A stretch of 31,696 bases of DNA, from IMG/VR virus record IMGVR_UViG_3300037071_002407, positions 1 to 31,696 of that record; one strand, 5' to 3'. This stretch comes from a virus. The notes under the pieces are model-generated. The model saw only the letters and a program-made list of their open reading frames with translations. It did not search any database and had not been told where the DNA came from. Below, one piece after another: positions 1,423-7,887 of this stretch; positions within the stretch are counted from its first letter, which is position 1; every line of letters begins with the position of its first letter. The translations under genes and the position numbers were made by a program.

Positions 1423-1809
1423 ATGAATAACTTTTTTGTAACTATTGTGTTTTCCGGCGACCACGGTGTTGACCTCGAAAAACAGGACGGGGAAACCGTT
1501 AACTTCCTCGCAGAAGGCGACACGAAGGCCGACCATATAATCAGGCGCCACGTCGTGAGTTTGGCTAACGCGTTGAAGGAGTATAAACATACAGAACTCG
1601 TATCCGCGACCTTGACACACAGCAACGGTCTTATAGACGATAATTTAATTACGGGTGTCCGGCGGGTCCTCGTCGGCTTCGACGATGGAGAATTCGATCC
1701 TGCCGAGGTTGAAGATGTTATTGTGGACAGCGGCGGAGCAATCGTCTTGGGAGGCACAGCAATCGAGCTTTCTCCCTCAACAACCGCAGAAAAACCCGCC
1801 GTTGAATAA
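1423..1809 (+). CDS. Acidic hypothetical protein (128 aa)
   Basis: Not recognised. The 128-residue product is acidic, with clusters such as FDDGEFDPAEVEDVIVD around residues 84-100, and it ends in a Ser/Thr/Pro/Glu-rich tail. It lacks hydrophobic segments and known catalytic motifs. The ATG sits in an A-rich leader (CCTTAAAAAATG) with no Shine-Dalgarno, the initiation context used across this window and typical of Bacteroidota. It is the last gene of the leading small-gene cluster; the next promoter-like element begins one base after its stop. An almost equally long antisense ORF covers the same span but is judged a shadow. Confidence 0.6.
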   Translation: MNNFFVTIVFSGDHGVDLEKQDGETVNFLAEGDTKADHIIRRHVVSLANALKEYKHTELVSATLTHSNGLIDDNLITGVRRVLVGFDDGEFDPAEVEDVIVDSGGAIVLGGTAIELSPSTTAEKPAVE

Positions 1810-1810
1810 G

Positions 1811-1834
1811 TTGGCACGGTTTTTGTGGTATATT
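1811..1834 (+). promoter_or_regulatory. Promoter-like element, copy 1 of TTGGCACGGTTTTTG
   Basis: TTGGCACGGTTTTTG at 1811-1825 is followed by TATATT at 1829-1834. The 15-mer matches the sigma-54 consensus YTGGCACGRNNNTTGCW except for T in place of C at the -12 element. A sigma-70 reading (TTGGCA, 17-nt spacer, TATATT at 1834-1839) is also possible. It is intergenic, 61 nt upstream of the ATG at 1872, and an identical 15-mer recurs at 4178 and 6589. Confidence 0.7.
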
Positions 1835-1840
1835 ATATTC

Positions 1841-1860
1841 TAAACCTAAAACCTAAACCT
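1841..1860 (+). repeat. Short A/C-rich direct repeat in the leader of the 79-aa gene
   Basis: The 5' leader contains a CCTAAA-type unit about three times (taaacctaaaacctaaacct). It lies between the promoter-like element and the ATG at 1872. It is likely an unstructured A/C-rich leader that aids initiation in a host without strong Shine-Dalgarno use; a protein-binding role is possible but unsupported. Confidence 0.4.
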
Positions 1861-1871
1861 TACTCATTGCA

Positions 1872-2111
1872 ATGAGAGTACTTGTTACTGTTACCAAAAT
1901 CGTTAAGCCGGGAACAACGGTAGGTCGCGCAACCACTGGTGATCGCCACATCGAAGGATCAGAACTGGAATTATTTTCCGGTGAAGGAGCTTTGCTGGCT
2001 ATCCAGAATAACATCACTGGCGCTATTTACCAGACCGACTTCGCCTATGCAGGTGTAGCCGCTGTTCTTGCTGCCGCTCCCACCACAGGAGGTCACTTTC
2101 TTTTGACCTAA
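1872..2111 (+). CDS. Small structural-type protein in its own transcription unit (79 aa)
   Basis: Family not recognised. The 79-residue protein is small, rich in Gly/Ala/Thr and mostly beta-like (MRVLVTVTKIVKPGTTVG at the start, an Ala-rich segment near residues 57-69, then TTGGHFLLT at the end). It has no cysteines or obvious membrane segment. It is flanked by a strong promoter-like element 61 nt upstream and a hairpin-plus-T-run terminator 33 nt downstream, so it appears to be made from its own short mRNA. That layout suits an abundant virion component such as a decoration or head-completion protein, which is inference from context and composition. Confidence 0.7.
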   Translation: MRVLVTVTKIVKPGTTVGRATTGDRHIEGSELELFSGEGALLAIQNNITGAIYQTDFAYAGVAAVLAAAPTTGGHFLLT

Positions 2112-2143
2112 GCCTTAAAAAGCTTTTCCTCCCGCCTATTTTC

Positions 2144-2189
2144 AAGGTCGTTGGTTTGGACATTCGTTCCACGACCAATCGACCTTTTT
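2144..2189 (+). terminator. Rho-independent terminator
   Basis: AAGGTCG-TTGGT (2144-2155) pairs with ACCAA-T-CGACCTT (2174-2186) to give a 12-bp stem with one bulged base, followed by a T run (2185-2189). It closes the short unit containing the 79-aa gene and lies 23 nt before the terminase start. Confidence 0.8.
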
Positions 2190-2211
2190 CTGTTTACACA
2201 CCCCTTTACCG

Positions 2212-3411
2212 ATGACCGAAGAAAAAGAAGACAAAGTCGCGATAATTTCCCCCGCCGACTATCGTCAGGATTTGGAACAAGAAGTTGCTCTTCATTTGGC
2301 TAGGATCAACAGAACACCTCAGTTTCGAGTCACAAAGAAATACGAGCATATTACCTTTCCAACCTTCAAACCGAGCGAACGTAAAGAACGACTTGATTGG
2401 GAGTTGGAAGAAATTCGTCGTTGTAGAGAGGGTTACAACGGGATGCCCGGACGCTATTATTATTTCTTCAACCACGTTAAGATCAAGCATAAGAAGAAGG
2501 GTATGATTCGCCCCGACTTTCGCTCCACGCAGATGCTTTGGGCGAAAACAAAAGAGCGAATCATGAATACACCCGGAACAGGTATTGTGATGATTAAGCG
2601 CCGTCAGGTAGGTATGTCGTGGGACATGTCTGCCGACAACATTTACGATGCGCAATTTTTTCACGAGGTCGACATCGGGATGAACTCGAAGTCAGAAGCA
2701 GACTCGCGAAAGCTCTTCCTAAAGCACAAATACATCCACAGAAATCAGTCGCCATTTCTCCGCGCCTATGTACACATAGACAGAAGAGATGCAATGGTGT
2801 TCGGTAGATGGGTAGAGAAGAAAAAGGATCACGTCGGCACAATGTCGACAATCACATCTGTTGCTCCAACACCCACCGCACACGCTGGTAACCAGTACAG
2901 AAAACTTGTGATGGATGAAGCCGGAGAGTCAGACGTTGTGGCAATTTGGTCTAACGCGGAGGATACACTCATGCAAGACGGTGTACTGATCTGTACACCG
3001 TTTATCTTCGGAACGATGGGGGACACAGATACCATCGGTCAAGGTTTGATGGAATTCTGGAAGAACCACAAGGTTTACAGTCTTGAACAGTTTGCCTTTT
3101 GGGGTTACAACTGTTTGATCATCGATAATCTCGGCAACGACGATATTGAGAATTCCTTGCGATGGATTATCTATGAGAGGAAGCGGAGAGAAGCGGGTGC
3201 GACGAGGATGTATAAAAAATTCCTTCAGAAGTATCCTATCACGGAAGAGGACGCATTTTTAAGTATCAGTGGTGTTGGTGTTGGTGATCCGTTGTTGCTT
3301 CAGAAGCAACGACTCAGATTGTTCGATGAGCCGCCTATGATGGTTCCCGGTTTCATGCGCCCGAGACTCGGCCAAAACATTACACCTCAGCTTATAACCT
3401 CTTTATCATGA
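2212..3411 (+). CDS. terL: Terminase large subunit, ATPase part (399 aa)
   Basis: This is the motor ATPase that pumps DNA into the prohead. A deviant Walker A of the K-x-R-Q-x-G-x-S type lies at residues 129-136 (KRRQVGMS), where the lysine precedes the loop. Walker B is at about 232-236 (LVMDE), and a coupling-type motif follows near 260-268 (TPFIFGT). The ORF stops right after the ATPase domain, shorter than a usual full terminase, and the nuclease domain is encoded by the next ORF through an ATGA overlap. The frame of that next ORF is open back to 3330, so one indel between 3330 and 3408 would fuse the two. No promoter motif was seen between the upstream terminator and this start. Confidence 0.85.
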   Translation: MTEEKEDKVAIISPADYRQDLEQEVALHLARINRTPQFRVTKKYEHITFPTFKPSERKERLDWELEEIRRCREGYNGMPGRYYYFFNHVKIKHKKKGMIRPDFRSTQMLWAKTKERIMNTPGTGIVMIKRRQVGMSWDMSADNIYDAQFFHEVDIGMNSKSEADSRKLFLKHKYIHRNQSPFLRAYVHIDRRDAMVFGRWVEKKKDHVGTMSTITSVAPTPTAHAGNQYRKLVMDEAGESDVVAIWSNAEDTLMQDGVLICTPFIFGTMGDTDTIGQGLMEFWKNHKVYSLEQFAFWGYNCLIIDNLGNDDIENSLRWIIYERKRREAGATRMYKKFLQKYPITEEDAFLSISGVGVGDPLLLQKQRLRLFDEPPMMVPGFMRPRLGQNITPQLITSLS

Positions 3412-4172
3412 TAGCGGATTTTGTACCCGATCCTTTAAACGGCAAGATCATTGTGTATCAGCAGCCGGACCCGAACAGGGTGAACGGGTATATTTTTACG
3501 TGTGACCCCGCCGAGGACGATGACGTCGAAAAGACCCGCGACACCTCTAACCTCTCACTGTGCGGCCTAACAAAACCCTACGGAACAGAACCCGCGCTAC
3601 TTGTTCTCGAATACTGCGACAGACCAAAGAAGCTTGTCGACTATTATCAACAGGTTGCTTATATACTTCTCTGGTATCGATCCAAGGTACACATAGAGTT
3701 GAACAAAGGGGGATGGAGAATGCTCCAATGGTTTCAGGAGCACTACCCCGAACTCCTCGCGCTGCTCCCGGCCTCATATAATTCGGCCAAGGGTGGTGTA
3801 AAGATGACACACGGTTATCGTATAACCAACGAGCGCAAGACACAGCTAAAAGGTCTCGGCGACGCTTACGTAGAAAACTACTGGTCCTATATTCCTTCAA
3901 TCCGACTCCTTGACGAGCTTAAGGTCGTGGGGGCCGCTGGCAAGGACGATGACTTGGCGATGGCATTCCTTGGGGGGTTAATGATCCTTCAGGGTGATCC
4001 GGTTCCCGCCCAAACAGCACAGCAGGCCACCGTGTCCACACCCTCTGTTCATTATGAGAAGAAGAATGGAAAAATAACAATGGTGACTCCGGGCGTAGGA
4101 AGCTTCGTCTTGAACACCCCCCAACAGAAACCTCCTCAAACCAGACCCAAATCAGCACTTTTCAGATTTTAG
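3408..4172 (+). CDS. Terminase large subunit, nuclease part (254 aa)
   Basis: This ORF carries the RNase H-like nuclease domain of a large terminase, which cuts concatemeric DNA at the start and end of packaging. Candidate acidic metal ligands are D33 (FTCDPAEDDD), E97 (VHIELNKGGW) and D190-D192 (GKDDDLAMAFLGG), in the usual order and spacing for such nucleases. The last ~50 residues are Gln/Pro/Thr-rich and probably disordered. The start ATG overlaps the stop of the ATPase ORF (ATGA), which suggests translational coupling and equal amounts of the two parts. It could instead be one gene broken by a frameshift, natural or a sequencing error. A promoter-like motif starts 6 nt after the stop. 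Confidence 0.8.
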   Translation: MIADFVPDPLNGKIIVYQQPDPNRVNGYIFTCDPAEDDDVEKTRDTSNLSLCGLTKPYGTEPALLVLEYCDRPKKLVDYYQQVAYILLWYRSKVHIELNKGGWRMLQWFQEHYPELLALLPASYNSAKGGVKMTHGYRITNERKTQLKGLGDAYVENYWSYIPSIRLLDELKVVGAAGKDDDLAMAFLGGLMILQGDPVPAQTAQQATVSTPSVHYEKKNGKITMVTPGVGSFVLNTPQQKPPQTRPKSALFRF

Positions 4173-4177
4173 TCCAA

Positions 4178-4201
4178 TTGGCACGGTTTTTGTTCTATAC
4201 T
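4178..4201 (+). promoter_or_regulatory. Promoter-like element, copy 2 of TTGGCACGGTTTTTG
   Basis: TTGGCACGGTTTTTG lies at 4178-4192 and TATACT at 4196-4201. The spacing between the two elements is the same as in copy 1. The motif starts 39 nt before the portal ATG, so the leader would be only about 5-15 nt under either a sigma-54 or a sigma-70 reading. Confidence 0.7.
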
Positions 4202-4216
4202 AAATTCCCCCATTAG

Positions 4217-6553
4217 ATGCCCGGAAATTATTCCCTTCCTCGTCTGGACGTTCCCGATAGCGAGAAGAATACCCAAAAATACCACGAAGACTTTGCAAGA
4301 GCAATTGTAAATCGTTCCATTTCCGATAGTTGGAGGAACGATTATATGCTCGTAGCAGAATGCTACAAGTTCCTTGAAGAAGGTTCTAGCGGCGAGCTTG
4401 TGTCTCACTTACAAAAAGGAGACGACGGCACAGACCTCCCCGCAATTTGGTTATCGCTCAACACCATCCCCACAAAGATTGATCTTCTAACTGGCGAACT
4501 CGAAACTCGTGGTTACGACATCCGTGTGAGAGCGTTGAACAAAGAAGCTGTTTCTCGCAAACAGGAGCAGGTCGAAAAGCTTCGTGTAAAAAGGAAGCTT
4601 GGCCCTCTGTTCAAAGAAGCCGATGAGATCGCTGGTATAGCCAGTGGTGAGAGTGAATACGTTCCTCAGTCAGAAGCAGAACTCCGTGAATATGCAGACC
4701 TATCCATCAAGGACAAGTTTGAAATTATTATGACGGGGATTTTGAAGTGGGTTGCTAAGAGAAACGATTGGGATGAAGAACGGAAGACATTGTTCCGCGA
4801 CATTCTTATCGCCAATCGTGCGTGGATAAGGAATGAGATAATCAGAGGTATACCGCGCTCACGCAGGGTACATCCGCTGAATATGATCTTCGACACATCC
4901 GCGAAAAAGGATGATCTATCTGATGCAACTTTTTTCGGAGAGGTAGAATACCTGCCCCTAGCCAGTGCAGCAGAGCGATACAACCTGAGCACAGAAGAAT
5001 TGGAGCGCGTCTACGGAAAGTACCAAGAGTACATGGGAACGAACGCAGCTACCGAAGCGATATCTCCTTCAGCGGACTATGCCGCGAGTTTTGAAACAAT
5101 CGGCGGCAAACGCCTGTCATGGTTTAAAACAGTCGATGACGAGTTACGAGTTCTGGTAACTCGCGCCGTGTGGAGAGACTACAAGTATCTCCATCACAAA
5201 CACGAGAAGAATAAGAAGTACGGTTCGGAACACCTTCAAGAAATTCCCTCCACCTCTGACGTTCGCTCAAGAGAACAGAACAAGACCCAACTGATTACGA
5301 AGAAGTTGGAAATATGGAGACAGTGTACAATCATTGGTGGTCACGTTGTTCGTGAGTGGGGTGAATGCCCTAATCAAGCTCGGGATGTAAACGATCTCGG
5401 CACTACAGAGGCTCCGTACAAAGCTTGGATACCAAACTATAGTTCTGGTCGCGGCGTTTCTAAAGTCGAACAGCTTGCTTCTGTACAGCTATACAAAGAC
5501 GTCCTTTTGTACAACATGCAGTTGGCTGTTTTGAGGGCTGGCGCAAAAGGTATCAGCTACGATTTAGCAATGAAGCCTGACACCATGACGGTCGAACAGG
5601 TTATGAAATACCTGAAGACAGCGGGTGTCACTTTCTACAACTCAAAAGATTTTCAATTCCTCGCCGGTAGTAATACATCTCCGTTCAGAGAATACGATCT
5701 GAGTATGAGTGATTCTGTGGTCAAATATGTTGACCTCATGAATTACCTCGACAGAGAGATGGACAAAATTTCCGGTATATCGCCGGAACGTCAGGGAGCC
5801 GTACAAGGAGCTTCACAAGGTTTGGGTGTTCAGCAAACAGCGCTATTTCAATCGAACCTTATCACACAGCCGTACTTCATTGGCTTCGAACGGTTCTGTT
5901 CCCGTGTGTTGAATCATCAAGCCAAGCTGGCCAAAATTTCTTGGGCGGAAGGCAATGATGTTTTTGCTCCGGTTATAGGTGACGTCGGTGTCGACTTTCT
6001 CCGAGAGCACGTCGATTTAGACTTCGAAGATTTTGCAGCGTTTTCTGAATCAATACCTCCGCTGATCCGCGACCGCGAGAAATTCGAGTCGCTTGTAATG
6101 ATTGCTGTTCAAAGCGATCCTACCTTTATCGACGAGGCTATTCAAATCCTCATGGAGCAAGATACACGTGTTGCTGTCAGACGCTTCCAGCGCAGACGGG
6201 CAATGCAGAAAGTGTACATGGCACAGGAGCAACAGGCTTCAGAAGAACGTCAAGCAGCGCTCGAAGAACGCCTGAAGGGGTTAGAGATGCAGGGCAGGCA
6301 GATGGAGATCGACGGTCGTCTGGAAGAGACTCAAATGAAGAATGAAGCCGGACAGTTGAAGACATCTTCGACAGGGCGCACCAAACTTTCCGATACCAGT
6401 ATTAAAACTCATGTTGATTTACTCAAACATCAACAAACACTACGGTCCCAAGAAAAACAACAAAAAGAACAAAATGAAATCAAGCGTCAAGAAATTATTG
6501 CCCGCAATCGGGAAAAATCCAAACAGCAGCGTAAAACCAACGCCAAAAAGTAA
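4217..6553 (+). CDS. Portal protein (778 aa)
   Basis: This is the dodecameric gate at the packaging vertex through which DNA enters and leaves the head. The length (778 aa), its place directly after the terminase, and a middle region with many aromatic and Arg residues fit crAss-like and other podoviral portals. The segment near residues 520-545 (SGISPERQGAVQGASQG, followed by a Gln/Ser-rich stretch) resembles the conserved portal tract where 'gisperqG' precedes a helix. The last ~120 residues are highly charged and Gln/Glu/Lys/Arg-rich with coiled-coil character (QASEERQAALEERLKGLEMQ), as expected for an internal barrel or tail. The start ATG at 4217 is the first after the promoter-like motif. 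No truncation is evident. Confidence 0.85.
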   Translation: MPGNYSLPRLDVPDSEKNTQKYHEDFARAIVNRSISDSWRNDYMLVAECYKFLEEGSSGELVSHLQKGDDGTDLPAIWLSLNTIPTKIDLLTGELETRGYDIRVRALNKEAVSRKQEQVEKLRVKRKLGPLFKEADEIAGIASGESEYVPQSEAELREYADLSIKDKFEIIMTGILKWVAKRNDWDEERKTLFRDILIANRAWIRNEIIRGIPRSRRVHPLNMIFDTSAKKDDLSDATFFGEVEYLPLASAAERYNLSTEELERVYGKYQEYMGTNAATEAISPSADYAASFETIGGKRLSWFKTVDDELRVLVTRAVWRDYKYLHHKHEKNKKYGSEHLQEIPSTSDVRSREQNKTQLITKKLEIWRQCTIIGGHVVREWGECPNQARDVNDLGTTEAPYKAWIPNYSSGRGVSKVEQLASVQLYKDVLLYNMQLAVLRAGAKGISYDLAMKPDTMTVEQVMKYLKTAGVTFYNSKDFQFLAGSNTSPFREYDLSMSDSVVKYVDLMNYLDREMDKISGISPERQGAVQGASQGLGVQQTALFQSNLITQPYFIGFERFCSRVLNHQAKLAKISWAEGNDVFAPVIGDVGVDFLREHVDLDFEDFAAFSESIPPLIRDREKFESLVMIAVQSDPTFIDEAIQILMEQDTRVAVRRFQRRRAMQKVYMAQEQQASEERQAALEERLKGLEMQGRQMEIDGRLEETQMKNEAGQLKTSSTGRTKLSDTSIKTHVDLLKHQQTLRSQEKQQKEQNEIKRQEIIARNREKSKQQRKTNAKK

Positions 6554-6588: not shown

Positions 6589-6612
6589 TTGGCACGGTTT
6601 TTGTGGTATTAT
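6589..6612 (+). promoter_or_regulatory. Promoter-like element, copy 3 of TTGGCACGGTTTTTG
   Basis: TTGGCACGGTTTTTG lies at 6589-6603, followed by TATTAT at 6607-6612 with the same spacing as copies 1 and 2. It is intergenic, 102 nt upstream of the scaffold-like gene. Unlike the other copies it is followed by a terminator-like hairpin before the start codon. Confidence 0.7.
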
Positions 6613-6690: not shown

Positions 6691-7887
6691 ATGGTCGAAA
6701 ACGTTAATTCCGCTTTATTAGCGAATAAACAAAAACGTGACGCCGATTCAGCACCTGTTACCCCTCCGGCGACCGTTGCTCCCGTCGTTACCCCAACAAC
6801 GCAATCAATTCCGGTTCCCGCGCCTGCGGTCGCCGCGCCGGTTGTAGAGAAGCCATCCGAGGCAGTGCCCGAAACAACTTCAAAGCAACCCGACGCCGCC
6901 AAAGAGTCAGCGAAACCGGAAACCACCCCGGCGACCCAAACCCCTCCGCTTGAAGAAGTGGAAGAGTACAAATGGGACGCCGATATACCTGACGAAACAG
7001 TCACCCCGGCAGAAGCACAAAGCCCTGCTCAAATCGACATTAAGAAAATAGGCAGTGCCTTAAATCTGGATGTTAAAGACGAGCAAGAATTTGTAACAAC
7101 TGTTTCACAAAAGTTGACGAAGCTCAAAGAGTTGGAAGCAATAGACACGCTTCCTGAATCACTGAAGCTCGCAATCGATGTGGCGAAAAAAGGGGGGGAT
7201 TGGTTAGCACTAACAGGAGCCGTCGCATTTGATGCGAACGCCCTACTGCCCGAAGAGTTGTTTGACAGACAGTTCGAGCGCGAAAACCTTCATTTGTTTA
7301 AAAATCCAGATGGGTCTATAAACATCGAAGCCTACGACGCAGAACTTGCAAGCGTTTCTCCCGCTCTTAAAAAGATGCACGGGAACATGATTAAGCAACA
7401 GATCGTTGCGCGTCAACAACAACAGAAGAACGAAATTTTGGCTCGAACAGCCGCACAGCAAGAACGCTTCCAAAAAGGTTTGAGCGATGCCGCGCAAGAG
7501 TTATCGAAGACTCTCCCCAAGGAGAAGTTTGGTATTTCTATCGAGCCAAAACACTCAGCTTATCTCTACAAGGGGGTGGCTGATGGAACGTTGATCAAGA
7601 AGCACCTCGGCAACATTGATGCTGCCGCGCTTGCTCAGATGGACCCGAAGAGGTTGATGGCCACCGTGGCGATCGCAGAATTGGGAGAAAAGATCAGCGA
7701 GTTCAATAAGAAGCAGGGAATCGCAGAGGGCAAAAAACAACTGTTGAAAGTAGCAACAAACCCGCAGGTACAATCACCTTCATACGCTCCTCGTCCGAAC
7801 GACCCCGGTGAACCGGCACCTGTGCCCACATCAGCCGAACGTCTAGCCGGAATGCAAGAGCGACAGAAGCCGAAAAACTCATTGTAA
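6691..7887 (+). CDS. Probable capsid scaffolding protein (398 aa)
   Basis: It sits between portal and major capsid genes, the standard place for the scaffold that guides prohead assembly and is later removed. Residues ~20-115 are Pro/Ala/Thr/Val-rich and low-complexity, then acidic (PPLEEVEEYKWDADIPDE). Residues ~125-360 look almost entirely helical and Gln/Lys/Glu/Ala-rich (IVARQQQQKNEILARTAAQQ). The C-terminus is Pro-rich with a basic end (QERQKPKNSL), similar in kind to scaffold tails that touch the capsid protein. No protease motif was seen. The call rests on position and composition. Confidence 0.7.
   Translation: MVENVNSALLANKQKRDADSAPVTPPATVAPVVTPTTQSIPVPAPAVAAPVVEKPSEAVPETTSKQPDAAKESAKPETTPATQTPPLEEVEEYKWDADIPDETVTPAEAQSPAQIDIKKIGSALNLDVKDEQEFVTTVSQKLTKLKELEAIDTLPESLKLAIDVAKKGGDWLALTGAVAFDANALLPEELFDRQFERENLHLFKNPDGSINIEAYDAELASVSPALKKMHGNMIKQQIVARQQQQKNEILARTAAQQERFQKGLSDAAQELSKTLPKEKFGISIEPKHSAYLYKGVADGTLIKKHLGNIDAAALAQMDPKRLMATVAIAELGEKISEFNKKQGIAEGKKQLLKVATNPQVQSPSYAPRPNDPGEPAPVPTSAERLAGMQERQKPKNSL

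Follow-up and report, generated by a model that had tools for sequence, protein, structure and literature searches.

The window analysed here is an IMG/VR virus record of 31,696 bases, present as a single contig. In this window the gene of the large terminase subunit (terL, protein TerL) is divided into two open reading frames, designated ORF1 and ORF2. The locus has the following features:

2212..3411, plus strand: ORF1, predicted ATPase half of TerL, 399 aa (phrog_6681, 52-63% identity to relatives, motifs)
3408..4172, plus strand: ORF2, predicted nuclease half of TerL, 254 aa (phrog_6681, acidic motifs, structure model)
3408..3411, plus strand: ATGA, the start of ORF2 on the stop of ORF1 (ORF coordinates)
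3388..3416, plus strand: segment of 29 nt between the homologous parts (tblastn with the TerL of the nearest relative, L007; comparison of linker lengths)

A search of the PHROGs profiles revealed that ORF1 matches positions 86-360 of the 758 positions of phrog_6681 (terminase large subunit; E 1.2e-25) and that ORF2 matches positions 517-663 of the same family (E 9.2e-8). The two ORFs are successive segments of one profile, in agreement with an earlier note made from the DNA letters, which had described the gene as divided at the boundary of the ATPase and nuclease domains. ORF2 is located in the -1 frame relative to ORF1 (frames 1 and 0), its ATG occupies positions 3408-3410 and the TGA of ORF1 positions 3409-3411. 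The ATGA overlap and an ORF2 frame that is open upstream to 3330 had both been described before, and the ORF coordinates confirmed them. The parts expected of a TerL are present, namely an ATPase with Walker A and B and coupling motifs and an RNase H-like nuclease with an acidic triad, and they are distributed over two ORFs with an ATGA overlap instead of one continuous frame.

The comparison with relatives showed that ORF1 retains a variant Walker A motif (IKRRQVGMSW), Walker B (KLVMDE), the sequence FGTMGDT and the coupling motif, and that ORF2 retains the catalytic acidic motifs CDPAED, IELN and DDDLA. The proposed location of the Walker motifs in the first and of the acidic nuclease residues in the second ORF thus held. 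The ratios of nuclease to ATPase identity were 0.74-1.06 for the window and 0.71-1.21 in unsplit pairs. Because all motifs are retained and the ratios are within the range of the unsplit pairs, neither half looks decayed. The predicted model of ORF2 (mean pLDDT 67) matches the nuclease domain of T4 gp17 and RB49 gp17 with E values of 1.8e-7 to 1e-6, which gives ORF2 the predicted fold of a gp17-type nuclease domain. For ORF1, AF2 modelling reached a pLDDT of 37, and for this reason the ATPase fold of ORF1 is assigned from sequence only.

Relatives were collected by alignment-based scans of IMG/VR. Single-protein scans with ORF1 and with the portal protein and two scans of genome contigs returned no relatives; the collection comprises six TerLs that are close relatives, found on seven contigs and 52-63% identical across the ATPase half, together with many distant ones. 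All distinct relatives with a readable TerL (64/64) have a one-ORF protein, which runs from the ATPase into the nuclease in a single frame; many distant members of this set are closely related among themselves, so that the 64 are not independent. The exact junction of ORF1 and ORF2 was absent from all other IMG/VR records scanned. An intact ORF in all relatives had been named in the earlier note as an observation that would speak against a real split. This observation was indeed made, but it shows only that the split, as judged by sequence comparison, is a derived state that was observed once. The nearest relative, L007, encodes its TerL at 1523-4651 in one ORF of 1,042 aa, including an intein of 406 aa between GYIIC and CDPAED, at or just before the first nuclease aspartate.

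Two further observations concern the terL region of other relatives. An ORF that by eye resembles a GIY-YIG endonuclease is present in L013 (5976-6791), where it separates terL from the portal gene, and in L008 (1201-1938), where it is upstream of terL. In-frame stops were seen in the ATPase half of some distant TerLs, one each in L040 and L042 and three in L076; these stops may reflect recoding, damage or an alignment that overruns the start.

The position of the frame change was analyzed by tblastn with the TerL of L007 against the window. Residue 392 of L007 ends at 3387 in the ORF1 frame and residue 394 begins at 3417 in the ORF2 frame; overall, homology in the ORF1 frame reaches 3387 and resumes in the ORF2 frame at 3414-3417. 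Between these anchors L007 contains 3 nt and the window 29 nt, which corresponds to a net gain of about 26 nt. The linker between two fixed anchors comprises 84 aa in the window versus 69-75 aa in the six nearest relatives. According to these alignments the frame changes within 3388-3416, at the place where the inter-domain linker contains about 26 additional nt. The earlier note had proposed that an indel within 3330-3408 would join the two frames; homology narrows the zone to 3388-3416 and adds the extra nucleotides. The 29-nt segment contains both the stop of ORF1 (TGA) and the start of ORF2 (ATG), and a search within the window for another copy of the insert found none. No homopolymer in 3330-3416 exceeds four bases. 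With 29 nt in place of the 3 nt of L007, a one-base error alone is insufficient to account for the locus.

To estimate how often an overlap of this kind arises by chance, one-base deletions and insertions were simulated in 18 coding stretches of the window (107,204 cases). A stop overlapping a downstream ATG as ATGA or TAATG resulted from 2.4% of the simulated indels, or from 1.6% if the first ATG was required. At the other gene junctions of the window overlaps of 1 or 4 nt are found in 8 of 30 cases. The ATGA layout is therefore ordinary for genuine genes of this genome and unusual for random damage. It has the form of a coupled gene pair as found elsewhere in the genome, and the translation of the two halves would presumably be coupled as well. 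Among the window genes with usable relatives, TerL is the only one for which the ORF of a relative spans two frames; several genes without a usable relative are outside this comparison.

The earlier note had listed a two-gene terminase, programmed frameshifting and a sequencing or assembly error without choosing between them. Of these, two genes are now best supported, from an unreplicated sequence, and frameshifting found no support in sequence or structure. On balance we lean towards a genuine, lineage-specific fission of TerL into two genes with coupled translation. The split probably originated from a short natural insertion, although a single sequence leaves room for an error. In an ancestral one-ORF terL this insertion would have lengthened the variable linker between ATPase and nuclease by about 26 nt net and would have created a stop together with an overlapping new ATG. 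A single mRNA would then be translated for both halves, ORF2 being reached most simply by termination-reinitiation at ATGA, and the two polypeptides, ATPase and nuclease, would join non-covalently at the portal. This sequence of events supposes that the DNA sequence is correct and that the halves work together. The resulting two-subunit motor, in which separate ATPase and nuclease proteins held non-covalently at the portal still translocate DNA, is conceivable but somewhat doubtful.

TerL is present in nearly all tailed phages, and in models of the T4 motor the ATPase and nuclease domains are coupled by a hinge on one chain. If the phage is viable with separate chains, it would provide a direct test of whether translocation requires the covalent link. 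If the split is an error, linker length and start/stop overlap would still be of use in assessing broken genes on single contigs. A fission has against it that it was seen on one contig and that the relatives have one ORF (64/64), and it must account both for its absence in relatives and for the function of the motor. In the laboratory, T4 gp17 was cut at the linker, at the same domain boundary as in the window; each half kept its own activity, but DNA translocation was abolished (PMC3012670). The division in the window, by contrast, would have arisen in nature, in a phage that is presumably viable; given the T4 result, a real split requires either that the two halves come together again or that a fusion protein of some kind is produced.

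The next reading to be considered is an error in the sequence or its assembly, or else a genuine but defective genome; here a one-ORF TerL with an unusually long linker would have lost its frame by an indel in the linker, either in the assembly or in a dead variant. We regard this as rather unlikely, but it has several points in its favor: the junction was seen once, all relatives have one ORF, the linker is variable, so that extra length would be tolerable, and a covalent link is needed for translocation in T4 (PMC3012670). On the other hand, the linker would still exceed those of the six nearest relatives by 9-15 aa, 3330-3416 is free of homopolymers longer than four bases, a chance ATGA or TAATG overlap is expected in 1.6-2.4% of cases, and all other comparable genes of the window are intact. 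An error would have to combine a linker extension and an indel in the same short stretch with this start/stop coincidence.

Recoding, in which some ribosomes move to the -1 frame between 3330 and 3411 (or skip the insert by hopping) and produce a full-length TerL with ORF1 as the shorter product, appears improbable. The ORF2 frame, open to 3330 and overlapping ORF1 in -1, would permit it, TTTA at 3402-3405 is located shortly before the stop, and the T4 data point to a need for a covalent link (PMC3012670). However, the canonical heptamer X XXY YYZ is absent from the overlap, in line with the earlier note, which had seen no strong slippery heptamer, and the RNA structures predicted around the junction or downstream of it do not exceed shuffled sequences in stability (z +0.6 to +0.9). 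The slippery heptamer and stimulatory RNA structure of a programmed -1 frameshift are thus both missing, and the arrangement occurs in none of the relatives. Codon pairs that might serve a ribosomal hop, for example ATA at 3394 and 3411, were given no weight, because several of them can be found within this short stretch.

An intron, intein or intein remnant in terL or readthrough of a recoded stop can practically be dismissed, even though L007 contains its 406-aa intein, introns, inteins and recoded stops are abundant in crAss-like phages (PMC7886860) and group I introns split terL in gut huge phages (PMC12363816): the homologous parts are just 29 nt apart with nothing spliceable between them, Rfam gave no match in the window, the split is about 30 residues before the L007 intein site, and in the ORF1 frame a TAG directly after the TGA and the persisting wrong frame would keep readthrough from reaching ORF2. 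The weights given to the fission, to an error or defect and to recoding, with the remainder left to other causes, are a matter of judgement.

Compared with known systems, the one-ORF TerL of crAss-like phages and relatives (phrog_6681) has the same domains, order and motifs and the same place directly before the portal gene; the relatives have a continuous ORF in 64 of 64 cases, whereas the window phage has two ORFs and about 26 extra linker nt. Interruptions of terL by group I introns (PMC12363816) and inteins in the TerL of crAss-like phages (PMC7886860) are already known. In the gut huge (Jug) phages terL is likewise found in fragments, but these are separated by introns and the message is restored by splicing (PMC12363816), in contrast to the 4-nt overlap of the window. 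The inteins of crAss-like phages (PMC7886860) and L007 likewise interrupt the TerL of related phages, but they are in frame and part of one precursor, and the L007 site is next to the first nuclease aspartate, beyond the split of the window. No report of a naturally divided TerL lacking a splicing element was found in the open-access literature searched, which does not prove that such a split is unpublished.

The gene directly after terL encodes the portal protein (phrog_6547, E 1.8e-74), which among named relatives is closest to crAss-like phages with about 20-28% identity. The putative major capsid protein had no tblastn match in the phage collection. Of the three proteins by which membership of the order Crassvirales is judged, TerL falls in phrog_6681, the portal has about 20-28% identity to crAss-like portals and the putative major capsid protein is unmatched; the phage appears distantly crAss-like, and the missing match of the capsid protein prevents a closer placement.

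The sequence TTGGCACGGTTTTTG occurs in three exact copies on the plus strand of the window (1811-1825, 4178-4192 and 6589-6603). Each copy is intergenic, located before a gene (at 1872, the portal gene at 4217 and at 6691) and followed by a TATA-rich stretch, and exact copies are also found in the relatives L015 (8050) and L021 (7562). We take this sequence to be similar to a sigma-54 promoter of the -24/-12 type. In the gap before terL, positions 2144-2190 of the plus strand contain a strong hairpin followed by a T run (fold z -4.05, no shuffled sequence equally stable), which looks like an intrinsic terminator in the predicted fold.
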